32,007 bases of DNA from Bacteroidales bacterium (GTDB lineage Bacteria > Bacteroidota > Bacteroidia > Bacteroidales > F082), in the NCBI GenBank assembly GCA_027022105.1, contig JALVZH010000088.1, positions 6,253-38,259 on the forward strand, given 5' to 3'. Positions 7,663-31,972 of this stretch are shown piece by piece. The notes beneath the pieces were generated by a model. The model was given only the letters and a program-made list of their open reading frames with translations. It did no database searches and had not been told where the DNA came from. Position 1 is the first letter of the stretch, and each line of letters starts with the position of its first letter. A program made the translations under genes and the position numbers.

Positions 7663-9318
7663 CTATCTTTTTTGAATTTTAATGGTCTGTTTTACGTTAT
7701 CTTTTCCGATAAGTTTCAAAAGATAATTACCGGGAGGTAACAACTTTAAATCAAACCTGTATTCATTTAACGTCTTTGTACCGGCAAATACCTCTTTCCG
7801 TATGAGCAAATTTCCCGATAAGTCATACAAAAACAGATTCAACTTTTCCTTGCCGTTGACTTTAACGTTCAGAACAAAATAATCTTGACAGGGATTAGGA
7901 AATACACGAACACCCCTTACAGGCGATTCACCGGCAAAAACACCGGCATGAGGGTCATGGCACTCAAAGGCTCCCGCATCAAAATAATCGTGGAACGGAC
8001 GGGAACGGTTCAAAAGGTCAAAGTTTATTCCCTCACTGCTCAGATCGGTTCCGTAGTTTACCGCTTTTGACGAAGGTTGCAGGTCGTAATTATCATTTTC
8101 GGGATCAATAAATTTAACATCCCCCGAAACATATTTTACAAAGTTATTCTCAGTTTCGACGGCAGAGCTGTTTACATTGTTGTTTATAAACGCATCGTTT
8201 CCTATTACAGGAAACTGTCCCGGCCCTGTTATCAGATTGTTTTTCACAAAGGTTTTTTCCAAATCGCCGTTGGCAATGGTAATTCCGAAAGATTTGGGAT
8301 CAATAACGGTATTGTTGTAAATTCCCAGTAACGCATTTTCAGTGGTTACCGTATTGCCAATATAGATTCCGTGTTTGTAATCATTGGGATTTCCCGGGTT
8401 ATAGCTTTTCCCTGCCCTGACAATCAGATTATTAAAAACCTCATGGTTGCCAAGCCCGAAAATATCTATCCCGTCGCCTTTGCCATCAAATATTTGGTTG
8501 TTGTAAGTTTTGCACACACTTCCACCGCCAAGCAATATACCCGACATTTGCCCATACTCTTCGGCCTGAGAGTCGAACCGGATAATATTGTCGTGTATCC
8601 GGCAATTAGATTCTGCAGAACTCACCTGAATACCGTCCCAGCCCGTATTTTCTATAATATTGTTAAAAATCCGCGTACCTATCATAACATGAGGCAGCAC
8701 AGTTGTATCGCAGTCACTTAAATACTGACCCGTATATTTGGAACTGCCGATATAGAGCCCTTCATCCTCAATATCATGCACATAGTTGTGATGGAACCAG
8801 AAATTGTACATGGTAAACTTATCGCGGGTCGATGAAAAATCGGTACACGTGGGATCAGTTTTTGCATACACACCGGCTATTGCCGTATGTGCCGTTTCGG
8901 TATAGGCAATTTCGACATTTGTACTCAGTTCGCCTACGGAAATTCCCGCACCTTTACCAACACGTTGCACCTGAATACCGTATTCCGTGCCGGCATCGCC
9001 GTTTCCCAGGAGTCTGATGTAACTGCAGTGTGCTATCTTAATCCCGTAAAAGTTATCAGTATTGATAACAACAGCACCTCCTTTATTCACTATGGTAACG
9101 GGATTTCCTTCTGTGCCATTGATATTAAGCAGATACAGGTATTCCTTGTTTCCCGGTTTCAGGCAAATGGTTTCGCCCGGTTGAACACCCAATTCGTTAC
9201 CGTCAATCTGCGTAGTGGAAGCATCAAATTCATAGGTACACGTTTGTGCCGGCAGCGAATGAGTTATCCCCGAAAACAAAATAACAAACCCCAACAGAAC
9301 ATGTTTCATTTGTGTCAT
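7663..9318 (-). CDS. Secreted right-handed parallel beta-helix protein with C-terminal type A T9SS sorting domain
   Basis: Signal peptide (MKHVLLGFVILFSGITHSLPAQ). Repeated NNxI/HDNII/FNNLIV beta-helix turns. C-terminus VRVFPNPCQDYFVLNV...LFLYDLSGNLLIRKE...LPPGNYLLKLIGKDNVKQTIKIQK matches the Por secretion tail pattern. Confidence 0.85.
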   Translation of the reverse strand: MTQMKHVLLGFVILFSGITHSLPAQTCTYEFDASTTQIDGNELGVQPGETICLKPGNKEYLYLLNINGTEGNPVTIVNKGGAVVINTDNFYGIKIAHCSYIRLLGNGDAGTEYGIQVQRVGKGAGISVGELSTNVEIAYTETAHTAIAGVYAKTDPTCTDFSSTRDKFTMYNFWFHHNYVHDIEDEGLYIGSSKYTGQYLSDCDTTVLPHVMIGTRIFNNIIENTGWDGIQVSSAESNCRIHDNIIRFDSQAEEYGQMSGILLGGGSVCKTYNNQIFDGKGDGIDIFGLGNHEVFNNLIVRAGKSYNPGNPNDYKHGIYIGNTVTTENALLGIYNNTVIDPKSFGITIANGDLEKTFVKNNLITGPGQFPVIGNDAFINNNVNSSAVETENNFVKYVSGDVKFIDPENDNYDLQPSSKAVNYGTDLSSEGINFDLLNRSRPFHDYFDAGAFECHDPHAGVFAGESPVRGVRVFPNPCQDYFVLNVKVNGKEKLNLFLYDLSGNLLIRKEVFAGTKTLNEYRFDLKLLPPGNYLLKLIGKDNVKQTIKIQKR

Positions 9319-18767: not shown

Positions 18768-20264
18768 TTAATCTCTTGGTTTCAATGACCAAGGTGAGAT
18801 TCCCTGGGCAATTCTTGCGACATACTCTCTGTCAAGCTGTTGGGCTGCAAAAATAAAACTCCAACTAAGATATAACAAAATACCGGTAGGCATCTGACCA
18901 AGCACACCATTCCCATAGGCGGCCCCGAAAATACCGGCATAGCCACCCAGCAAGGCTCCGAGAACCCCGCTCAGTTCTTTGCTTTTTACCCGGGCCATTA
19001 TCAAATAGAAACCCTTGAACATGATGTACATCAGGATAAAAACATGGAGAATTAAACCTACACGTCCCTGCTCTGCCCATATTTGTACATACCAACTGTC
19101 GGTAGCAACATTGGCAAGGAAACCCTGCGGTGAAAAACGTTGCCCCCAGTTACCTGCCGACCCGATACCACCTCCAAAAGGTTTATCGGACAGATATTCT
19201 TTTAAAATAGCACGGTTTTTTAAACGCACCTGATAAGAGGCATCATTTTCAGGACGAAAAGCGGTACGCATCCTTGCAATGGTATAATTACTTTCGCCAA
19301 TATAGGTATGAGCAAAAAAGACATATACAATGGCAAGCAACAGAGCTCCCCACATGATCACTTTAAAACGCTTCGACAAAATTAAGAAGGTAATACCCCC
19401 AAGCATAGGAACGATCATGGCACCCCTGGTACCCGAAATCATCATTCCCCATAAAGACATCAATCCTACAAAGTAAAAAAACAGTTTATTAAACCTCCCC
19501 CGTATAACCGGTGCAATACCAAGGAACACCGTTCCTGCAGCTCCCTGTGCAGCTCCAAACTGGCCGGCATCACTAAAAAAGGAAAATATCCTGAGTTTAC
19601 CATTAATAACATGGGTAATTGCACCCACTGTATCGAGCCAGTACTGCTCGGCAGAATCAAGACCGATATAGGATTGCTGTAAGCCTTTTAATGTGGCAAG
19701 GAGCGAGAAAATGGCCCATATCATCAGAAACGCATAGAGATGACGTAACCTGCTGAATATAAGCAACCCCAACGGTACCACCAACAAAGGATACATCGAC
19801 ATACCACGCATGGCATAAAACCAGGCTGTACGACTGAGCGCCAAAGGGTTAAAAAGTTCCATTACACCATATAAAAACCATATGAGTGTAAGATAAACTA
19901 TATCCCGTTTTATCTGGGTTAAATCAATCCTGTCATAAAAGTTCCTGAAAAAGAAAGCAATATAAGTAAGCACCAACAAGGCATCAATCGACAATCCGAA
20001 CGGGACGCCTTTTATATACCGGGTAAGACCGATTGCCAGAAAAGCCATTACGATGGTGGTATAAAGGCCAAGAGTAGGATGGTTAAAAAGACGGTTCAGG
20101 TAAATAATAATGGGAACCAATAAAAGAATGGCAAGAGAAACCTTTACCCCCCCTTTTGCTATGATATACCCCAAAACAAGAGTTGCAAGAAAAATAATCG
20201 CAATCACCAACGGGTGTTGCAACTTGTTCGCTCCTGTCTTTTCTTTTAACGATTCCAGCATCAT
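18768..20264 (-). CDS. O-antigen ligase/polymerase (Wzy/WaaL-like) multispanning membrane protein
   Basis: About ten hydrophobic segments; MISGTRGAMIVPMLGGITFLIL and FGGGIGSAGNWGQRFSPQGFLANVATDSWYVQIWAEQGRVGLILHVFIL match the ligase/polymerase family pattern. Confidence 0.8.
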   Translation of the reverse strand: MMLESLKEKTGANKLQHPLVIAIIFLATLVLGYIIAKGGVKVSLAILLLVPIIIYLNRLFNHPTLGLYTTIVMAFLAIGLTRYIKGVPFGLSIDALLVLTYIAFFFRNFYDRIDLTQIKRDIVYLTLIWFLYGVMELFNPLALSRTAWFYAMRGMSMYPLLVVPLGLLIFSRLRHLYAFLMIWAIFSLLATLKGLQQSYIGLDSAEQYWLDTVGAITHVINGKLRIFSFFSDAGQFGAAQGAAGTVFLGIAPVIRGRFNKLFFYFVGLMSLWGMMISGTRGAMIVPMLGGITFLILSKRFKVIMWGALLLAIVYVFFAHTYIGESNYTIARMRTAFRPENDASYQVRLKNRAILKEYLSDKPFGGGIGSAGNWGQRFSPQGFLANVATDSWYVQIWAEQGRVGLILHVFILMYIMFKGFYLIMARVKSKELSGVLGALLGGYAGIFGAAYGNGVLGQMPTGILLYLSWSFIFAAQQLDREYVARIAQGISPWSLKPRD

Positions 20265-20303: not shown

Positions 20304-21731
20304 TTATCTCCTCAATCTTAATAATCCGCTTCTAAAAAACCAGTAACCTCCGCGCAAAATATTTCTGTACTTCAGGTTCAACTCTTTGTTCAGATAGTGA
20401 AACCCTACAAAAATACCTATTAAAGTAAACAGTATGGTTACCCAGGCAACACTTTCAAGAACATTTATTACCGTAAACTGTTTGATAACATTTCCCAAAA
20501 GAGTTACGTCGTTGAAACCTGATAAAACCAAAGCCATAAAAGCAACAAACAGGCTTATATAATAAAAACCAAACACCATAATACTGTCGCCAATGATATT
20601 GGCCAGAGTCATATACACCACTTTTATAAAATTTTGTTTCGGCCTGTTCACACTGTCTAAAGCCACTCCAACAAACCTGTCGATGGGCAACAGCAGTCCG
20701 TACACACAAAATATTCTCAGTATGGCTGCCGTTTCTTCATACCCTTTACCCCCCACAATATACACAAATTCTTTGGCAAAGATAAATGTGATTAACATTA
20801 CCGGTACCATCAGGAGTGTCATCCCTCCGGCATTGTAATAAAAAATATTTTTTACCTCTTCATCATTTTTTTCAATGCTTGCTTTCGACATACTGGGAAA
20901 CGCAGTCATGGCAAAGCTGCGCAACGGAATCTCGATAATCTCCGTAAGTTTCAAAGGGATGCTGTATAAAGCCACACCCGTTGTCCCCAAAAACGGACTT
21001 AAACCGATAATAAAAGTGTCGGCACTTTTTAACAAATTACTCCCAATCAGGGTACCTGTAGTATATTTTCCAAAGTCGAGAATAACTTTATTGGCTTTCC
21101 GGGTAGCATGCCCGAAATATTTTATCCCGTCCCAATTGAACAAAGAGGCAACAAGTGATGTAATAAAATTGGTTATGAGATATGCATAAACAATAATCAG
21201 AAGACCCGCATGAAAAAAGATAAAGTTAGCCAAAAGAAAGAGCATAAAAAGTCCCACATTGATAATGCGCAACAACAGAATGTAATCAAACCTGAGTTTT
21301 GCCTGTAATACCGACTGTGCATTATTGAACGGAATGGTAATAACGGCAATAACCGGAAACCAGGTAAAAAACAGTGAAAATCCCGAAGACTTTATCTGAT
21401 CGGGAAACAGGTAATTAGCCAAAAGTACAAGTGCAATGATAATTATGGTACTGACAATACCAATAACATAATTGGAACCGATCAGCTCTTTGGCCTCTTT
21501 TTCGTCCGCTCCGGACAGAAAGCGGACAATTGCAGTCCGCGTAATACCAAAACGGAACATATCAATAAAATTAGCAGTGGTAATTAACAAAACCCATTCA
21601 CCGAAATCGGAAGTTGGAAGACTTCTGACAAGAATCAGAAAACTGAAAAAACCGAATACGGCAACCAAACCATTGTTGGCCAGCGAAAGAAAGTTCTTGT
21701 TTTTAAATATTTTAACAACAACATTTGCCAC
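20304..21731 (-). CDS. wzx: Polysaccharide flippase, Wzx/MATE-like
   Basis: Multispanning; N-terminal LANNGLVAVFGFFSFLILVRSLPTSDFGEWVL; position next to the Wzc-like and Wzy-like genes. Confidence 0.82.
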   Translation of the reverse strand: MANVVVKIFKNKNFLSLANNGLVAVFGFFSFLILVRSLPTSDFGEWVLLITTANFIDMFRFGITRTAIVRFLSGADEKEAKELIGSNYVIGIVSTIIIIALVLLANYLFPDQIKSSGFSLFFTWFPVIAVITIPFNNAQSVLQAKLRFDYILLLRIINVGLFMLFLLANFIFFHAGLLIIVYAYLITNFITSLVASLFNWDGIKYFGHATRKANKVILDFGKYTTGTLIGSNLLKSADTFIIGLSPFLGTTGVALYSIPLKLTEIIEIPLRSFAMTAFPSMSKASIEKNDEEVKNIFYYNAGGMTLLMVPVMLITFIFAKEFVYIVGGKGYEETAAILRIFCVYGLLLPIDRFVGVALDSVNRPKQNFIKVVYMTLANIIGDSIMVFGFYYISLFVAFMALVLSGFNDVTLLGNVIKQFTVINVLESVAWVTILFTLIGIFVGFHYLNKELNLKYRNILRGGYWFFRSGLLRLRR

Positions 21732-21734
21732 TGC

Positions 21735-24686
21735 TTAAGCTTCTTTCTTGACTGATATTTTAAATTTGGTCGGATAGGTGATAATATATTTTATCTTTTC
21801 AATATATTTTTTCCTATTCTTTGGTAATTCGGTAATTATCTCATCCAGAGCGTAAGATTCAACATGATTCAAAATTACCAGAGGTTCTGTACCAAGCGCG
21901 GCTTTAAATGTTTCCAGTGCCCGTTCGTCGGCTTTGGTTAATTTTTGTGTCGCTTTTACAACATACAATGCCGCATCCATTTTCTTTAATAACCTCAGCG
22001 GATAAGAATGATAAATAATAGAGGGAATCTCAATAAAAATGTAATCGTATGATGAGTTTACCTTTCTAAGATATTTTTTCCCTATCAATTCACCAAGATT
22101 TTCCACATCAATAAAGTTATCGGAGATTTTATAGGTATAATAATAGTTAAAATCATTTTCCTCATTCTCTTCGCCCTCTTTGGAATAATTGAGGTACAAT
22201 ACCCTGTCGCCAATGGTTCGCAACCTGTTTACAATTTTATGGGTTATCAGTGTTTTTCCGGTTTTATTCTGTGTGCTGAACACCAGAATAAAGTATGGAT
22301 TATTGCCCTCTTTTTTCAGTGAGGACAATTGCAGTTTCAGATTTTGTATGGTCATGTCTATCAGACGCGTACTTATGGAGGCAAGTGCCAAAGCCTGTTC
22401 TTTATCCGAGAGAGCGGGATAGGCGCCGGCAAGTTTCATCTTGGTTTTTTCCACAACCCTGCTGGGGTTTTTCATGGAAGTATCGAAATACTCAAGCGAT
22501 ACAATGATGAAAGCGATAATAATAAATCCTGCCAGAAATGCGGCCACAACCATAAACTTGGCTTTGGAAGGATTGGGTGCAATGGGGAAATAGGGAGGAT
22601 CGACAATTTTAACATTGGTTGACATCTCCAGGTTTTGCTGTTTCATTTTGGCAATATTCAAGCTCCTTAACAACTCAAAGTATGTTTGTTCAGCAAGTTT
22701 TATTTCTCTTTCAATGCGAGTAAGCATTGCTCCGAGTGGTGCATATTTTTGGTAAGTCCGTATAAAATCAAGTTTTCGTTGTGACAAAACTTTCAACGAT
22801 GCTTTGGCCTCAACATAATCAATGGTATTTTTAAGCCACTCGTCGAGCAACTGTTTTATGGGCACTCCCTGTGTGGAATGGCCGTACAGATAGAGCTGGT
22901 CGGCATACAGCTTAATTTCGTCGCGTAACCGCTTCTGCCTCCTTTTTAGTGCTGCTATATCCTTCGCAATTCTGTCATCATAATTTGCCGCAAGCTGATT
23001 GATTAATATTTTTTCGGAAACATCGGCAAGTTCCTTTTTCCTTTGGTTTATTACATCACTCTTTAAATAAATGGAATCACGAGCAGTCATTTTGGTTTCA
23101 AGTTCCTGTAATGCAGCCGACGAGGAGGACATTCTGATTTGTTCATTTTGATAATATACATCCAGATCCTCTTTTTGAGCGGCAATATATTTACTTTGCT
23201 CGTAATAGTTTATAATGTTGTTTTTCTTGTTAAACCTGAGCAAACGGTCCTCCGCTTCCTGCAGTTTTTGATCCGCTTCTTTTACCTGTTGTTCAAAATA
23301 TTTAACCACAAGGTCTGTCTCATTAATTCGCAGCAACTTGTAATTCTTCATAAATACTGTCGAAAGTATCTTCAATGTTTGCTGACAAATTCCTGGGTCG
23401 TCGGAGGTAAAGGTCAGTTTCACAAGATCGCTGTTATTTATGCGGTATATTTGCACCTGACTGATGGAGCGAATGCTATAATGTTTGCTCTGGCCGTAAT
23501 GCAGCAAACCGTAAATATAATTGGAATCGCTGGAGGCGTAATAGTTTTTCATATTCCTTACCGTAGCCTCATAATCTTCTTTTTTAACTCCGGGCGGAAT
23601 AATGGGGTCTTTTACAAATATCCTGTCGCCGGAAGCTGATGACAAAGAGGCAAAGGGTTGTTGGGTTTCAGGTTCTGAAGTTACCTCAACCGGTTGAGTT
23701 TGAGAATAAATGGAAGTCTGATCTTCCGAAACCTGTTTCACGGCAAAATCATATGAACTCGTAGTACTTTTTCCCCCGTCGCTAATGATAATCCGCTGAC
23801 CCGGTGTAAGCGAACGGTTGTTTAAATTGTTCAACTCGCGCAATTTGCTAATATTTACCCCGTACCGCTTTGCTATAGAGTAAAGCGTTTCTCCGGGCTT
23901 TACCGTATGATATTGGAGTGAAGTAACTGTTTCAGGTTTTCTAATGATCAGATTCTGTCCGGGCGACAAATCGGAATCATCATTTATACCGTTAAGGTTC
24001 ATCAATTGCCCCCTTGAAACCCCATACCTGGCGGCAATACTGCTTAATGTTTCGCCGGGAAGAACCGTATGGTACTCAGGTAAATTATTTTCCTGATTAT
24101 TATACTCGGGTGCACTGTTTTTTTCTAATCCGTAACCGGCAGGCGATTTTTGGATACCCGATTGTACACGTTTTACCTGTGAGAGTTCCCGAATAGCTTT
24201 GTTCTTCTTTTTACTTATCTCTTTTTCAAGTGAACGGATCTCTTTTTCCAGTTTATGTATTTGTTCTTCCTTTTCACGCTCAACTCCGGACTTACCATTC
24301 TTCACCACAAGATTTTTAATATACTTCGGTGTTTCTGCCATCAGTTTATCATAATTCTCATTTGAAATGTACTGGCGATTATAACTTTCGAGAGAAAGAT
24401 CCTGAGCATAAAGACGAATAGCAGTCTCAACTATGGTCTGCCTGGAATTCAGCAGGTTAATCATGTTGTCAAATTGCGCACTGGTACTAAAAAAGTCCGT
24501 TGGCCGCTGAGAGGTACTTTCAATGGAATATCCGGTTGTAATACCGGTATAGATTATTGCTTCCGACTGGTAAACCTTCTCCTGGTTTCTTGTAAAGTAA
24601 TAGACAAGAATGGCCAGAAAAAGAGGAACTGCAAGAAGCAGCACAATATTCCTTTTAAAAAGCCTTATAAAATATAGTAAATCCAT
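21735..24686 (-). CDS. Wzz/Wzc-like polysaccharide co-polymerase with two periplasmic LysM domains and a C-terminal BY-kinase-like domain
   Basis: TM1 (IVLLLAVPLFLAILVYYF) and Wzz start; LysM 1 EYHTVLPGETLSSIAARYGVSRGQLMNLNGI...LSPGQNLII and LysM 2 QYHTVKPGETLYSIAKRYGVNISKLRELNNL...LTPGQRIII; coiled coils; TM2 after VDPPYFPIAPNPSKAKF; P-loop STQNKTGKT. Confidence 0.88.
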   Translation of the reverse strand: MDLLYFIRLFKRNIVLLLAVPLFLAILVYYFTRNQEKVYQSEAIIYTGITTGYSIESTSQRPTDFFSTSAQFDNMINLLNSRQTIVETAIRLYAQDLSLESYNRQYISNENYDKLMAETPKYIKNLVVKNGKSGVEREKEEQIHKLEKEIRSLEKEISKKKNKAIRELSQVKRVQSGIQKSPAGYGLEKNSAPEYNNQENNLPEYHTVLPGETLSSIAARYGVSRGQLMNLNGINDDSDLSPGQNLIIRKPETVTSLQYHTVKPGETLYSIAKRYGVNISKLRELNNLNNRSLTPGQRIIISDGGKSTTSSYDFAVKQVSEDQTSIYSQTQPVEVTSEPETQQPFASLSSASGDRIFVKDPIIPPGVKKEDYEATVRNMKNYYASSDSNYIYGLLHYGQSKHYSIRSISQVQIYRINNSDLVKLTFTSDDPGICQQTLKILSTVFMKNYKLLRINETDLVVKYFEQQVKEADQKLQEAEDRLLRFNKKNNIINYYEQSKYIAAQKEDLDVYYQNEQIRMSSSSAALQELETKMTARDSIYLKSDVINQRKKELADVSEKILINQLAANYDDRIAKDIAALKRRQKRLRDEIKLYADQLYLYGHSTQGVPIKQLLDEWLKNTIDYVEAKASLKVLSQRKLDFIRTYQKYAPLGAMLTRIEREIKLAEQTYFELLRSLNIAKMKQQNLEMSTNVKIVDPPYFPIAPNPSKAKFMVVAAFLAGFIIIAFIIVSLEYFDTSMKNPSRVVEKTKMKLAGAYPALSDKEQALALASISTRLIDMTIQNLKLQLSSLKKEGNNPYFILVFSTQNKTGKTLITHKIVNRLRTIGDRVLYLNYSKEGEENEENDFNYYYTYKISDNFIDVENLGELIGKKYLRKVNSSYDYIFIEIPSIIYHSYPLRLLKKMDAALYVVKATQKLTKADERALETFKAALGTEPLVILNHVESYALDEIITELPKNRKKYIEKIKYIITYPTKFKISVKKEA

Positions 24687-24705: not shown

Positions 24706-25497
24706 CTATCGCAAAATATTTATCAAATTAAATTTCATTCCCGTTGTTACCTCCAACAATTGATAATTCTTATTGAATTGTGCCACAGCCTGCTGAAAAT
24801 TGATAGCTCCTCTTGTTTGAATCTCTTTTAAGCGGGTGTATTCTGCTGTTGTAATCTCCCCGTTTAAAAATTCATTTTGAGCCATCTGCATTTGCAGCAA
24901 TGTAAAATTCTGATAATCATTATAAATACGTATATATTGCTGATATTGTTGCAAATCGTTATAAATGGTAATTACCTCCTTTACCAAAAACCGTTTGTTA
25001 ATCTCTTTCTGTGCCATGGATATCTCCTGCCACTTTTTCTGCTTTTTAATCCGGTTACGCCGGTCAACAAGGGTAGCCAACGGAAAACGCATATAAAAAC
25101 CTATGGCATAATTATCGCGCCATGATTGTGTCCAATAGAACCTGTCTGTTCGTGTCAGCTCATCCTTATCCCAGTAATTCCATTTTCCGATATTGAGGTC
25201 GAGATTTACACTAAAATGTTCAAGCCACTCCCTTTCTACTGATAGCTGTTCGTAAGTATAATAGTCTCTCTTCAGGTCTTCATAAAGCATGGAAGGCGAA
25301 TTATAAGTAGCCGAATCAATAAGCACCTGTAACGGAGGTAACCGTTTGGTAATGTCATCCGTAATGGGATTAAAAAACATGGAGCTGTCTATCCTCCTTG
25401 CAAACTGAGCATTGATGTTTTTAAAAGGCATTACTGCCAACACCAATAGAATTCCCAAGAATGTTAATCCCGTTTTTTTGTGTATCATTTGTTTCAT
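24706..25497 (-). CDS. TolC-family outer membrane efflux-like protein, about half length
   Basis: Signal peptide from MKQMIHKKTGLTFLGILLVLAVMPFKNINAQ; PPLQVLIDSATYNSPSMLYEDLKRDYYTYEQLSVEREWLEHFSVNLDLN and two long helical regions with QMQMAQNEFLNGEITTAEYTRLKEIQTRG. Only one alpha/beta repeat seems to fit. ORF track start is 25518. Confidence 0.7.
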   Translation of the reverse strand: MKQMIHKKTGLTFLGILLVLAVMPFKNINAQFARRIDSSMFFNPITDDITKRLPPLQVLIDSATYNSPSMLYEDLKRDYYTYEQLSVEREWLEHFSVNLDLNIGKWNYWDKDELTRTDRFYWTQSWRDNYAIGFYMRFPLATLVDRRNRIKKQKKWQEISMAQKEINKRFLVKEVITIYNDLQQYQQYIRIYNDYQNFTLLQMQMAQNEFLNGEITTAEYTRLKEIQTRGAINFQQAVAQFNKNYQLLEVTTGMKFNLINILR

Positions 25498-25601
25498 GTT
25501 CAAATATCGTTCTTCCATTTTAACCCGGAAAATTAAGAGTTATTCATTAAGGTTTCCGGTCATTTTTACATTATATTTCAATAACTTATCAACAATCTGC
25601 A

Positions 25602-26813
25602 CTAAACACTTTCTTTTTGAAACAAAGCCGGTATCGTTCTCAGTATCAGCTTTATATCACCCCAGAACGAATAGTTCTGCGCATAATAGTTATCCAGCCG
25701 TTTCCTCTCTTCCTCCGACATTACACCGCCCTTTCCGCGCAATTCAACCTGCCATAAGCCCGTAATACCCGCCGGACCGAGGAACCGTGCACTCCAGTCG
25801 TCCGAAGTCAGCAACTCGGCTTCATACAAAGGTAGCGGCCTGTTCCCCACAATCGACATATCTCCTTTCAACACATTGATAAGTTGCGGTAATTCATCAA
25901 TGCTTGTATTTCTGATAATTTTCCCGACCTTGGTAATCCGCGGGTCGTTGGGTATTTTGACGAATGTTGTTTTTTTCTTTTTCTGTTGTTCGCGATACCA
26001 GTATTCGCAAATCTTTTTCCCTTCTATGTAAAGAACAGGTGAACAATATTCTCCTTCCGGCAGTTTTGCGCAGCGCGGACATTCTTCTTCAACTTCATTG
26101 GTTTTTTTCTGTTCTTCTTCTGCTGCTTTTTGTGCAGCAGCATATTGATTCATGTGCTCCAACTCTTTCAGTTTGGCATCTGCACCTGTGTACATGGAAC
26201 GGAATTTAAGGAAATCGAAAACCTTGTATCCCGTTCCCACACGTTTCGACTTATAAATAACCGGCCCTTTCGACTCCAGTTTTATAGCAATAGCTACCAG
26301 TAGCAGTAATGGCGAAAGGATAATCAATGCAGTAAGCGAAACGACAATATCAAAAAGCCTTTTGATAAACGGGATTTTATATTCCGGTACCGGTTCGTTT
26401 TCCGATTTCTTATCTGCAAGTTCACGAAGATAATAAATAAGAAAACGGATTCTTATTTCCAGATCTTTATTATCCACAGGAAGCTGATAATAATCGTCGA
26501 TAATCCCTTTCCTGGAGAACATTTCTTCCTTTTCTTTTTCGTTGTGTTCAAAAGAAATAAGGATGAAAGGAATTTTGGAAAATTGTTTTTTGCTTTTTAC
26601 CAGTTTGGCTACCTCATCACCATTGATACCGGGAAGACGCACATCACTTACAATAGCATCCACAGGACCTTCTTTACTTAGATAGTCCATAGCTTTGAGC
26701 CCGTTTTCTTTTCTTACGGCATCAAAAGAGTAATACTGGCCTAACTGCTCAAAAAATTCAAGGTTATTGCCAATATATAAAACTTTTAACTTTCCTCTGT
26801 TATCGGCTTCCAT
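25602..26813 (-). CDS. Receiver domain fused to priming sugar transferase (polyprenyl-phosphate glycosylphosphotransferase), with a Cys-containing insertion
   Basis: N-terminal CheY-like fold with DAIVSDVRLPGINGDEVAKLV. C-terminal IKRLFDIVVSLTALIILSPLLLLVAIAIKLESKGPVIYKSKRVG, FKFRSMY, NTSIDELPQLINVLKGDMSIVGNRPLPLYEAE, GITGLWQVELRGKG are sugar transferase signatures. Confidence 0.9.
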   Translation of the reverse strand: MEADNRGKLKVLYIGNNLEFFEQLGQYYSFDAVRKENGLKAMDYLSKEGPVDAIVSDVRLPGINGDEVAKLVKSKKQFSKIPFILISFEHNEKEKEEMFSRKGIIDDYYQLPVDNKDLEIRIRFLIYYLRELADKKSENEPVPEYKIPFIKRLFDIVVSLTALIILSPLLLLVAIAIKLESKGPVIYKSKRVGTGYKVFDFLKFRSMYTGADAKLKELEHMNQYAAAQKAAEEEQKKTNEVEEECPRCAKLPEGEYCSPVLYIEGKKICEYWYREQQKKKKTTFVKIPNDPRITKVGKIIRNTSIDELPQLINVLKGDMSIVGNRPLPLYEAELLTSDDWSARFLGPAGITGLWQVELRGKGGVMSEEERKRLDNYYAQNYSFWGDIKLILRTIPALFQKESV

Positions 26814-26824
26814 GCGCTTTACCG

Positions 26825-27211
26825 TTATTTACTTATCCGTTTGAGGATATTGTTAATTCGAATAGCCAGCTCTTCGGGATTAAACGGCTTAACAATATAG
26901 TCGTCAGCACCCATTTTCAGGCATTTTACCCGTTCCTGACTACTTTCAATACCCGAAAGCATTATTACGGGAATATGTTTAAAAAAGCCGCTTGCTCTAA
27001 CTTTTTCCAAAAAAGCGTACCCGTCAATGTTGGGCATTTGAACATCGGCTACAATCAGGTCGGGCATTTCACCCTCTTCAAGGTATTTCAGTCCTTCCTG
27101 CCCATCCTTCTTTGTAACAACCTCATACTCTTTACCTAAAAAATTTTCGAGAAGCATCCTGATGCTTAACTCGTCATCTATTACCAAAATTTTTCTCTTC
27201 ATAATTTGCAA
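26825..27211 (-). CDS. Stand-alone CheY-like response regulator with intact phosphorylation residues
   Basis: ILVIDDE, DLIVADVQMPNIDGY, VIMLSG and YIVKPFNPEEL. No output domain. Confidence 0.92.
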   Translation of the reverse strand: MQIMKRKILVIDDELSIRMLLENFLGKEYEVVTKKDGQEGLKYLEEGEMPDLIVADVQMPNIDGYAFLEKVRASGFFKHIPVIMLSGIESSQERVKCLKMGADDYIVKPFNPEELAIRINNILKRISK

Positions 27212-27326: not shown

Positions 27327-28502
27327 TTAAAATGAATCATCCACTCTGTTTTTTCGTTTTAACAATATCAATACCGGTATAGAGCCGGTAGCAATAATTG
27401 CCGCCAGAATATATGTTTTATCCAACCCGAAAACATCGCCCATAAACCCGGTAAACAATACAGCAAGAGCACTTGTAACAAAATTAATGGTTGTAAAACC
27501 GGCATTCATTAAAGCCGGCTGTGCCGAACCCTGCTCCTGTACCAGTGCCAGCAATACCGGTGTACCGGAATAAAGAGATAAACCCAACATCAAGAGTGCT
27601 GAAATTTGCAATATTCCTGTTGTATAAACATACATAAACATCAACAGCGGAGAGACCAAAGAAACCACAAGTAATGTATTGAATCTGCCCCATTTATCGG
27701 ATATTCCGCCACCAAGAAAACTACCGACGGCACCGGCAACCTGCAATATGGAAAGCGATACCGCTCCGGCCATTAATGTTCCTCCTTTATCTCCCACATA
27801 AACAGGCAAAAAAGTTGCCAGTGAAGATTTCATTACCGCCCTGAATATCAAAAACATGGTCAGCAGACCGAAAAACCCTGCATATTTCTTAAGAACACCA
27901 TGCCATTTCAGTATTTCACCTTCGTTTTTCACTGCATCTTTCTCAAAGGGTTTTTTCTCGATACCATAAGCCAATGCTATTGTAGCTGCAATGGCAGGCA
28001 AAATCAATCTCCAGGTTCCTTCAAGCCCCCACCAGCCTACAGCACTAATAATAAGCAGAGGACCTGTCATTCTGGCGGTTTCCCCTCCCAACATATAAAA
28101 ACTCATTCCCAGTCCGGCTTTCGGCCCCGAATACTCCTTTATCATCACCGGTGCCGGAACATGAAAAACAGCAGAACTGATACCCATTGTCAGCAATAAT
28201 ATGGCAAGGACGACGATTCCGGGTGCTACACCCAGCAAACTGCCTGCCGTGGCGGTAACCAGGGGTGCCATTAATATAATCAACCGCCAGGGCAACCTGT
28301 GAGCATAAGCCCCTACCACTACACTAAAAAGTGAAGGTAACCGCTGAAACAAACTTAACAAACCTGCAACGGAGAGGCTGATGCCGAATTTTTCAATCAA
28401 CAAAGGGAGAATGGGAGGTAAAAATGAAGAGTAAACATCGTGCACAAAGTGTGCCGACGAAATACTTATTACTTTTCCTGGCCGATATTTATTTTTTAAC
28501 AT
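27327..28502 (-). CDS. Major facilitator superfamily transporter, fosmidomycin-resistance-like
   Basis: SSAHFVHDVYSSFLPPILPLLIEKFGISLSVAGLL, GISSAVFHVPAPVMIKEYSGPKAGLGMSFYMLGGE, about 12 hydrophobic segments. Start overlaps the upstream gene end by 14 bp. Confidence 0.82.
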   Translation of the reverse strand: MLKNKYRPGKVISISSAHFVHDVYSSFLPPILPLLIEKFGISLSVAGLLSLFQRLPSLFSVVVGAYAHRLPWRLIILMAPLVTATAGSLLGVAPGIVVLAILLLTMGISSAVFHVPAPVMIKEYSGPKAGLGMSFYMLGGETARMTGPLLIISAVGWWGLEGTWRLILPAIAATIALAYGIEKKPFEKDAVKNEGEILKWHGVLKKYAGFFGLLTMFLIFRAVMKSSLATFLPVYVGDKGGTLMAGAVSLSILQVAGAVGSFLGGGISDKWGRFNTLLVVSLVSPLLMFMYVYTTGILQISALLMLGLSLYSGTPVLLALVQEQGSAQPALMNAGFTTINFVTSALAVLFTGFMGDVFGLDKTYILAAIIATGSIPVLILLKRKNRVDDSF

Positions 28503-29229
28503 TTTCCTGTTTTGTTGATTCTGTTAAACCGGAAATCATATCAGGCAGCCGGCTCCAGTTAAACGGCTTTGCCACAAATACATCCATACCGGCATCGAGA
28601 CACCGTTTGCGCTCCTCCGCCGTATTGTTTGCCGTAATGGCAACTATCAACGGACGCTTCTTCAATTTTTCTGCATTCTCCGGCAAACGCAATAGTCTGG
28701 TTGCCTCTATCCCGTCCATTACCGGCATTTGTACATCCATCAGTATTAAATCATATATCCTGTCAAAAGCCGCTTCCACCGCCTCTTTTCCATTCATTAC
28801 CACATCTACACGATAGCCGTTATTTTCCAAAATATTTTTTGCGAGCCGGGCATTAATATCATTATCATCCACTACCAAAATATTGTTAACCTCAACAGAA
28901 ATGGACGAATCCTTTCCATTATTCTCCATTTTTCTCCCGGGCAATTCATTTACAAATTGCGAAATAACATTTTGCAGGTTCAATCCGGCAGACTCTATAG
29001 TATTGGCCAATCGTAACGTTTCTTCATCATGATGCAACTCTTTCAGCAACTCAACGGCATTAAAAATAGCATGCAAGGGGGTATTTAGTTCATGCAATAA
29101 TTTTCCTGTTCCGGTTGTCTCTTCTTCGGTACCCGAAAGAACCTTTTCCCTGTTCTCACTCAGATTTTCCAGCCGGGCAGCAATTAATTTCCGTATCGTC
29201 GCCTCCTTTTTTTTCAAAAGGTTATCCAT
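28489..29229 (-). CDS. DHp (HisKA-like)-receiver protein lacking a HATPase domain
   Basis: KLLHELNTPLHAIFNAVELL matches the HisKA H-box with His kept (His46). After a short linker it goes straight to ILVVDDNDINARLAKN...DLILMDVQMPVMDG...VAKPFNW. No N, G1 or G2 ATPase boxes in 246 aa. Confidence 0.87.
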   Translation of the reverse strand: MDNLLKKKEATIRKLIAARLENLSENREKVLSGTEEETTGTGKLLHELNTPLHAIFNAVELLKELHHDEETLRLANTIESAGLNLQNVISQFVNELPGRKMENNGKDSSISVEVNNILVVDDNDINARLAKNILENNGYRVDVVMNGKEAVEAAFDRIYDLILMDVQMPVMDGIEATRLLRLPENAEKLKKRPLIVAITANNTAEERKRCLDAGMDVFVAKPFNWSRLPDMISGLTESTKQENVKK

Positions 29230-29466: not shown

Positions 29467-30690
29467 CTACTCATACCGCAATGCCTTTGAAGGAGTAATT
29501 TTCATAATTGCATATGAGGGGACAACGAGTATCAAAAGAGAAACCGCAAACGCCCCCGCATTAATGAGTAAAACCTGATACAAAGTTAATTCTACGGGAA
29601 CATAACTCACATAATAAGAAACCGGATCTAACTTTATCAAATGATATTTTTCCTGTAATAAATAAAAGAGAAGGGCGATACCGTTTCCCCAAACCATTCC
29701 TTTTAAAATTATGCCCGATGCTTTATAAAGAAAAATCTTTCGCAAAGAACCGTCCTTTGCCCCTAGCGCTTTGAGCAATCCCACCATGGAAGTCCGTTCA
29801 ATAATGAGAATAAAAAGAGTGGAAACCATTGTGATTCCCGCCACCAGAATCATAAGAACCAAAATAACCACCACATTGGTGTCTAACAGGTCGAGCCAGT
29901 TATAAATTTCGGGATATTGATCCATCACCGTAGCAACCGTCATATCAAACGGAAGGTTGTAATAGAGGCTGTTTGCCACCTCTTTGATTTGTTTACGGTT
30001 GGCGACCAACAATTCGATACTTCCCGCCTGGTTCGATTTCCATCCGTTGAGTTTTTGAATATGCCGGATGTCACCAATAAGGTAACGGTTATCAAACTCT
30101 TCGAGGGAAGTACGGTAAAACCCGGTAACCGTCAACTTTCGCCCTCTTGCCTGAGATGTACCACTGATGAACCAAATGCGGACAGGATCGCCCGTTTTCA
30201 AGTGCAACATTTTACCCAACCGTTCCGATACGAGCACCTCATTAGAAGTTTTTATGCCGTTAATATGGGGAAGCCTACCCTCAACCAGGCTCTCTTTCAG
30301 AAAGGTCCGGTCGTAATCTTTCCCCACACCTTTTAATACAACACCTTGTATCTGGTCTTCGGTTTTAAGTACGCCACCCTTTTGGGCGGTAATCTGAACA
30401 TGCGTGACTCCGGGATATTTTCTAAAAGCCCGAAGCAACGAATCGGTAAAGGTAAGCGGCTGCTCTTCATAGGAATTGTTTCTGTCGTAAGGAACCACTT
30501 TCAGGGGAGCGGCAAATCCGGAAACCTTACGGCTTACAGAATGCTTAAACCCCACAACCACCGCTACCGATACAATCATTACGGCCAAACCAAGCGCCAC
30601 ACTTATATAAGCAATGCGTACCACAGGCGCCGAATATCCGGAATTGTTTCCGGTGTGTATTCTTCCCGCTATAAACCGTTCAAAATTCAA
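29467..30690 (-). CDS. ABC transporter permease, LolC/E-FtsX (MacB-like) type
   Basis: N-terminal MNFERFIAGRIHTG and TM1; large extracytoplasmic domain; LMILVAGITMVSTLFILIIERTSMVGLLKALGAKDGSLRKIFLYKASGIILKGMVWGNGIALLF. Start codon would be TTG. Confidence 0.85.
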   Translation of the reverse strand: MNFERFIAGRIHTGNNSGYSAPVVRIAYISVALGLAVMIVSVAVVVGFKHSVSRKVSGFAAPLKVVPYDRNNSYEEQPLTFTDSLLRAFRKYPGVTHVQITAQKGGVLKTEDQIQGVVLKGVGKDYDRTFLKESLVEGRLPHINGIKTSNEVLVSERLGKMLHLKTGDPVRIWFISGTSQARGRKLTVTGFYRTSLEEFDNRYLIGDIRHIQKLNGWKSNQAGSIELLVANRKQIKEVANSLYYNLPFDMTVATVMDQYPEIYNWLDLLDTNVVVILVLMILVAGITMVSTLFILIIERTSMVGLLKALGAKDGSLRKIFLYKASGIILKGMVWGNGIALLFYLLQEKYHLIKLDPVSYYVSYVPVELTLYQVLLINAGAFAVSLLILVVPSYAIMKITPSKALRYE

Positions 30691-30775
30691 GATTCCTATT
30701 TTTTTACAAAACTACGGCTTTTCTCCCCATTGCTACCTGAAGAATTTGTATTTTTACGACTTTAAAAAGAAATAC

Positions 30776-31972
30776 ATGCACAGGGGATTTTTCAGTTTAC
30801 TGATAATAATAATTTTAGAATCGTTAATGCAGGTTTTGGCACAGGATACTCGTGTAAGACTGGCTGCTTATAATGAAATAGTTACCGGCAATATGCAAAC
30901 CGGGAAATACCTGCCGCTCATTAAAAATAAAAATGTTGCTCTTGTGGTAAATCAGTCATCGCTGGTCGGAAAAACACATCTTGCGGATACACTAAATGCT
31001 TTGGGGATTCAGATTAAGAGAATATTTACACCGGAACACGGTTATCGCGGCAATGTTTCGGAAGGCAAAGAAATAGAAAACTCGGAAACGGAAAACACAA
31101 AAATAGAAATTGTTTCGCTGTATGGAAAAAAGAAGAAACCGGCTACTGAAGACTTAAAAGATATTGAAGCCATCGTTTTCGACCTGCAGGACGTGGGAGT
31201 ACGGTTTTACACCTATATCTCAACATTAACCTTTGTAATGGAAGCCTGTGCCGAAAATCACATTCCTTTAATTGTGCTGGATCATCCCAATCCCAATGGC
31301 TTTTATGTTGACGGACCGGTGCTCGACACAACTTACCGCTCTTTTGTGGGAATGCACCCGGTTCCTGTTGTTTACGGAATGACCATTGGCGAACTTGCAA
31401 AGATGATAAACGGTGAAGGCTGGCTTAAAAACGGGATTAAGTGCAATTTGACTGTCATCCCCTTAAAAAATTACGATCATGGAATGATTGTAAAACTACC
31501 CGTAAAACCGTCGCCAAATCTCCCCGACTGGCGATCAATTTACCTCTATCCGTCCCTTTGCTTTTTTGAAGGAACAATTGTAAGCGTAGGAAGAGGTACC
31601 GATAAACCGTTTCAGATTTACGGACACCCCGATATTACTTATGGAAATTATCATTTTACACCCGTGGCGGGTAATGTTAGCAAACACCCGAAGCTGGAAA
31701 ACAAAACCTGCTATGGAGAAAATTTAAGCGGATATGCCGAAAACTATGTTTCAAACATGCCGAAACTAAATCTGAGTTGGCTTATCAAAGCATATAACAA
31801 CCTGAAAACCAAAGATAATTTTTTCAATAATTTCTTTGTAAAACTTGCGGGAACAGCTGAACTCAGGAAACAAATAGAAGACGGACTCAGTGAACCGGAA
31901 ATAAGAAAAAGCTGGGAAGAAGATTTAAAACGTTTTAAAAAAATCAGGGAAAAATATTTGATGTATCCATAG
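30776..31972 (+). CDS. DUF1343 protein, NamZ-like exo-beta-N-acetylmuramidase family, secreted
   Basis: Start taken at ATG 30776 (signal peptide MHRGFFSLLIIIILESLMQVLAQ). VNQSSLVGKTHLADTL, IKRIFTPEHGYRGNVSEG, VSLYGKKKKP, FDLQDVGVRFYTYISTL, VLDHPNPNGFYVDGPVLD, FEGTIVSVGRGTDKPFQIYGHP. Confidence 0.85.
   Translation: MHRGFFSLLIIIILESLMQVLAQDTRVRLAAYNEIVTGNMQTGKYLPLIKNKNVALVVNQSSLVGKTHLADTLNALGIQIKRIFTPEHGYRGNVSEGKEIENSETENTKIEIVSLYGKKKKPATEDLKDIEAIVFDLQDVGVRFYTYISTLTFVMEACAENHIPLIVLDHPNPNGFYVDGPVLDTTYRSFVGMHPVPVVYGMTIGELAKMINGEGWLKNGIKCNLTVIPLKNYDHGMIVKLPVKPSPNLPDWRSIYLYPSLCFFEGTIVSVGRGTDKPFQIYGHPDITYGNYHFTPVAGNVSKHPKLENKTCYGENLSGYAENYVSNMPKLNLSWLIKAYNNLKTKDNFFNNFFVKLAGTAELRKQIEDGLSEPEIRKSWEEDLKRFKKIREKYLMYP

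Follow-up and report, generated by a model that had tools for sequence, protein, structure and literature searches.

The window, a 32,007-nucleotide stretch of DNA from a member of the Bacteroidales, encodes a polysaccharide co-polymerase (PCP) of the Wzc type that bears two LysM domains (21735–24686, minus strand; a 983 aa ORF). Its sequence suggests a variant of the PCP-2-type co-polymerases for which no earlier description was found in the literature searched. Within the Bacteroidales, one branch has co-polymerases with one or two such domains on flexible tethers, which probably fasten the export machine to the cell wall.

Domain architecture of the co-polymerase

The AlphaFold model of the PCP, a monomer built from 27 homologues (pTM 0.41), places the first transmembrane helix and the opening portion of the Wzz base (motif 1) in residues 1–133 (24288–24686; all segments are on the minus strand), where Pfam Wzz also gives a sub-threshold match. 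A Lys/Glu-rich helix (residues 134–171; 24174–24287) opens the insert and leads into a disordered linker (residues 172–203; 24078–24173; pLDDT < 50 at 170–201). LysM1 (residues 204–250; 23937–24077) and LysM2 (residues 258–303; 23778–23915) follow, each supported by Pfam, by a genome search with the LysM model and by AlphaFold, and the insert closes with a low-complexity disordered linker (residues 304–357; 23616–23777; pLDDT < 50). The model and the profile link to Wzc assign the remaining motif 1, a long helical arm and the second transmembrane helix to residues 358–735 (22482–23615). The protein ends in a cytoplasmic BY-kinase-like ATPase fold (residues 736–983; 21738–22481), which Foldseek matches to the Wzc kinase domain (3la6).

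Pfam Wzz (24.8 bits) and GNVR (24.0 bits) fall just below their cut-offs of 25.5 and 27.7. The first-pass annotation, made from the sequence alone, had called the protein a Wzz/Wzc-like co-polymerase, and this assignment is borne out by profile–profile comparison and by fold. A profile built from members without LysM aligns over its full length with E. coli Wzc and other PCPs (E 1.7e-34, 609 columns); the match of the LysM-bearing alignment alone to E. coli Wzc is confined to the C-terminal part. The top Foldseek matches of the model are Wza-Wzc entries (E 2e-15). By model, Foldseek and profile, the Wzz base, the helical arm and the two transmembrane helices are homologous to those of PCP-2a proteins, and there is no doubt that the family, taken together, is of the Wzc type. 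It shares with E. coli Wzc two transmembrane helices around a periplasmic region, the Wzz base, helical arms and the BY-kinase fold.

The cytoplasmic domain retains GK[ST] and carries IxxE[IL]P where the Walker B motif is expected. The Walker A′ Asp was looked for in the PCP relatives and is absent (VLYLNY where Wzc reads VLLIDC), as is a Tyr-rich tail or cluster, with 0–3 Tyr among the final 20 residues; in both respects the family differs from E. coli Wzc. Given these losses and the altered Walker B, the domain is apparently a pseudokinase, a type also known in other PCPs (PMC12004946). EcpK/EpsV and HfsAB, PCP-2 systems whose BY pseudokinase is either fused or a separate protein, likewise have a kinase-like fold without the signature motifs and Tyr tail, whereas the window PCP keeps GK[ST]; LysM domains are not mentioned in that work (PMC12004946).

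The LysM pair

The interval in which two LysM domains had been proposed, 23781–24077, corresponds to residues 204–302 of the PCP. Pfam LysM (PF01476) matches here in two stretches at E 5.5e-33 and 113 bits, well above its cut-off of 20.9, and the genome search with the LysM model scores two copies separately in the PCP frame (67.2 and 56.3 bits), which rules out a chance LysM-like match. Both copies are modelled as beta-alpha-alpha-beta units, at residues 204–249 and 258–302, with moderate pLDDT (about 67–75). These results confirm the two domains, and the model places the Lys/Glu-rich helix and the low-complexity stretch where the first-pass annotation had seen them. The same layout occurs in 27 full-length homologues and in many genomes, and a single-genome oddity or an assembly fusion is thereby ruled out.

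Among the 27 homologues, mean pairwise identity is 54% for LysM1 and 60% for LysM2 but 19% for the linker on either side of the pair, which indicates that the LysM domains are under constraint while the tethers are free to drift. By the same measure, the base stands at 68%, the Lys/Glu-rich helix at 58%, the core (residues 358–735) at 69% and the ATPase-like domain at 48%. LysM consensus positions are retained across the aligned relatives. LysM2 is present in all 27, whereas LysM1 is missing from several, apparently through independent losses.

The best profile matches for the pair are the LysM pairs of cell-wall hydrolases, and the closest solved pairs come from peptidoglycan-acting enzymes. 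The nearest of these belongs to a two-LysM NlpC/P60 peptidoglycan endopeptidase of T. thermophilus (4uz2, 4uz3), whose pair is about 40% identical and has the same fold, although there the domains target a wall-cutting enzyme and here they sit in a polysaccharide co-polymerase. LysM domains are GlcNAc-specific, and by analogy the pair would bind a GlcNAc-containing glycan. In other proteins, LysM domains steer enzymes to septal or naked wall. Together with the hydrolase matches, this speaks for a reading in which the arms serve less to hold the machine than to guide it to one wall location, such as the septum, the pole or freshly denuded or recently cut peptidoglycan, and so couple it to wall growth. 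However, nothing in the locus links to division, and such targeting would be a special case of wall binding; we consider it quite unlikely.

The operon and its half-size TolC-like protein

Immediately upstream of the PCP gene, on the same strand, lies a gene for a half-size TolC-like outer-membrane protein of 270 aa with one OEP repeat (24706–25518, minus; PF02321, E 4.9e-9). It is preceded by a receiver domain fused to a polyprenyl-phosphate sugar transferase (403 aa; 25602–26813, minus) and a stand-alone response regulator (128 aa; 26825–27211, minus). Downstream of the PCP are a Wzx-like flippase (20304–21731, minus) and a Wzy/O-antigen-ligase-like polymerase (18768–20264, minus). The relatives whose loci were read keep a fixed order of response regulator, receiver-sugar transferase, half-size TolC-like protein, PCP, Wzx, Wzy and glycosyltransferases. 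In 63 of 66 Bacteroidales loci, the TolC-like gene directly precedes the PCP gene in the same orientation; of the other three loci, two are cut by the edge of a contig.

The TolC-like protein is modelled as a helix, a beta hairpin and two helices, which is the fold of one TolC repeat with a single hairpin, and Foldseek matches this model to TolC and OprM as an OEP repeat fold. A search of its profile against the PDB by sequence gave nothing, and the fold search alone produced these matches. In contrast to the two tandem OEP repeats per protomer of TolC and OprM, it has one repeat in about 270 aa, and it is paired with a co-polymerase gene instead of an efflux pump. Its length is conserved (median 269 aa across the 63 loci), which rules out a truncated pseudogene.

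No OPX (Wza) gene was found at the loci of this PCP family. The window's genome has two OPX genes, both on other contigs. In related genomes, OPX genes adjoin most of 30 other Wzz-domain loci, at none of which was a half-size TolC-like gene or a convincing LysM found; LysM as a general trait of the genome's Wzz proteins is thus ruled out. Judged by gene content and order, the predicted outer-membrane partner of the PCP is the half-size TolC-like protein and not Wza, the partner of E. coli Wzc, and the machine is not a Wza-Wzc system.

Operons of this type without LysM are present on Parabacteroides distasonis and Salinibacter ruber plasmids, which likewise carry a response regulator, a sugar transferase, a small TolC-family gene, a PCP and an O-antigen ligase. 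These PCPs, annotated as 'hypothetical protein', differ from that of the window in lacking the LysM insert, and the Salinibacter TolC-family gene is on the opposite strand. With or without LysM, the half-size TolC-like protein is a candidate OPX-independent polysaccharide exporter of the Bacteroidota. The findings point to its conservation in this phylum, gut species included, and no description of it was found in the literature searched; nor was any paper joining TolC with such systems in Bacteroidetes, in a search that covered few subscription journals.

Distribution of the LysM insert

The PCP was searched for in 60 relatives, in 393 Bacteroidales genomes and in 396 Bacteroidota genomes, and the loci were then read. 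The survey covered Bacteroidota genomes and a plasmid set, the latter being the sole route to other phyla. Of the 66 family members read in the Bacteroidales, 36 have no LysM, 15 have one and 15 have two. The 30 LysM-bearing proteins are spread over 15 family-level groups, and the two weakest cases, both in one group, are still above the Pfam cut-off. None of the 16 members read outside the Bacteroidales has a LysM. Close relatives come from records of Bacteroidales MAGs, one of which is labelled Lentimicrobiaceae. The first-pass annotation had allowed that the architecture might prove widespread and already characterised. It is widespread, within one branch of the Bacteroidales, and no characterisation was found in the literature searched. 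No paper joining LysM with a PCP was found there either, which is weak evidence of absence as the search covered few subscription journals.

On a PCP-core tree made by a quick method, LysM state is strongly clustered, and at least five changes between presence and absence are required. A single set of 46 rows (SH-aLRT 98) unites the two-LysM group with its one-LysM members, and inside this set LysM1 has apparently disappeared from two or more branches separately. LysM is also missing from one nested branch. Repeated loss of LysM1 and this nested absence are what a neutral domain insertion without present function might leave behind. Such a history sits poorly with the 60% identity of LysM2 beside linkers at 19%, and with the retention of LysM across 15 family-level groups; we hold it to be very improbable.

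A group with a weak single LysM (L116:7239–9977 and L118:776–3532) branches apart from the main LysM set. The tree alone cannot separate gain from loss, so this group is possibly a second, independent gain of LysM in the same slot.

The insertion slot and the proposed role of the LysM arms

PCP relatives without LysM (about 700–745 aa) have a short loop at the exact start and end point of the insert and lack the Lys/Glu-rich helix (residues 134–171) as well. In E. coli Wzc, the Wzz domain spans residues 16–107 and the jellyroll (WZC_N) residues 111–204. In the profile alignment, the LysM insert and the jellyroll share the interval between the first and second motif-1 ring stretches, an equivalence that is topological, drawn from the aligned flanks, and says nothing of kinship between the inserts. 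Jellyroll motif 2 was searched for in the window PCP and its relatives by Pfam and alignments and is not present; unlike in E. coli Wzc, the slot of this family holds LysM or nothing.

The main rival explanation starts from this slot, and supposes that the LysM domains replace the function of the jellyroll by recognising, close to the membrane, either GlcNAc-containing repeat units or the chain as it grows, and by feeding it to Wzy or measuring its length. The GlcNAc specificity of LysM domains suits such a role, one also proposed for the Wzc jellyroll. The Wzc jellyroll is itself a glycan-binding module for GlcNAc/Gal glycans, and its loss lowers colanic acid and capsule output (PMC12881504). 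The position of the insert thus makes polymer binding a stronger alternative than the first-pass annotation implied when it named the nascent polymer beside the cell wall as a possible ligand. Polymer reading is harder to square with the long disordered tethers on both sides of the pair and with the variable presence of LysM among relatives with similar transferase, Wzy and glycosyltransferase sets. Furthermore, members with an empty slot are widely conserved, and need no reader. We regard it as unlikely, though far from negligible.

Anchoring to the wall is the explanation that we favour, with fair rather than firm confidence: the flexible LysM arms may tether the PCP, and with it the half-size TolC-like export channel, to peptidoglycan. 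The PCP would act as the inner-membrane co-polymerase of a Wzx/Wzy system with this outer-membrane channel. Its LysM stalk, made of the Lys/Glu-rich helix and the disordered linkers, would project from the membrane-proximal ring into the periplasm, where the arms would bind the GlcNAc-MurNAc strands of peptidoglycan. Should the PCP form an octamer as Wzc does, the weak contacts of up to 16 LysM domains could act jointly and moor the PCP and the channel where the wall has a gap, with the helical arms still mobile. The octamer, the periplasmic exposure of the arms and the LysM ligand are all inferred by analogy.

Several observations argue for this anchoring. The helix and the two flexible tethers fit arms that reach out better than a domain held in place within the channel, conserved LysM domains between freely drifting linkers point the same way, and the retention of LysM2 in 27 of 27 homologues alongside the loss of LysM1 in several is as expected of an additive anchor. 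LysM varies among relatives that retain the same transferase, half-size TolC-like, Wzy and glycosyltransferase types, and a common ligand such as peptidoglycan fits this better than one particular polymer. The known function of LysM domains and the origin of the closest solved pairs in peptidoglycan-acting enzymes also favour the wall. The jellyroll that occupies this slot in Wzc is directed radially and makes no contact with its neighbours (PMC8285477), a geometry that favours anchoring as well. Against it count the many relatives without LysM, including those of Parabacteroides and Salinibacter, in which anchoring is evidently dispensable, the glycan reader that Wzc carries in this position, which favours polymer handling (PMC12881504), and the confidence of the model (LysM pLDDT about 67–75, pTM 0.41). 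The arms could possibly combine anchoring and polymer reading.

A broader model, which we find plausible but stop short of calling probable, is an OPX-independent Bacteroidota exporter in which a ring of half-size TolC-like proteins docks on a pseudokinase PCP with an exchangeable slot for glycan modules, used for LysM mooring in one Bacteroidales branch. The way in which capsule and EPS machines cross the peptidoglycan layer and are positioned there has been little discussed, and peptidoglycan goes unmentioned in the main text of the Wza-Wzc structure paper. If the co-polymerase does have built-in wall-binding arms, wall positioning becomes testable through one dispensable insert, for which the natural LysM-less relatives are ready controls.

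Additional features of the locus

The receiver-fused sugar transferase (25602–26813, minus) contains a four-cysteine insert, C-x2-C-x8-C-x11-C, at residues 245–269, which is kept in 71 of 93 aligned homologues and is possibly a metal or redox site. Upstream of the operon, an ORF at 28489–29229 (minus) has HisKA and receiver domains and no ATPase domain by Pfam, and may be a degenerate hybrid kinase. Also near the operon, 30614–31972 (plus) encodes a NamZ-type exo-N-acetylmuramidase, a peptidoglycan-recycling enzyme, and overlaps a LolCE-like ORF on the opposite strand. The glycosyltransferase cluster has at its far end a gene (7663–9318, minus) for a beta-helix protein that carries a sorting tail for type 9 secretion and is possibly a surface enzyme acting on the polymer.
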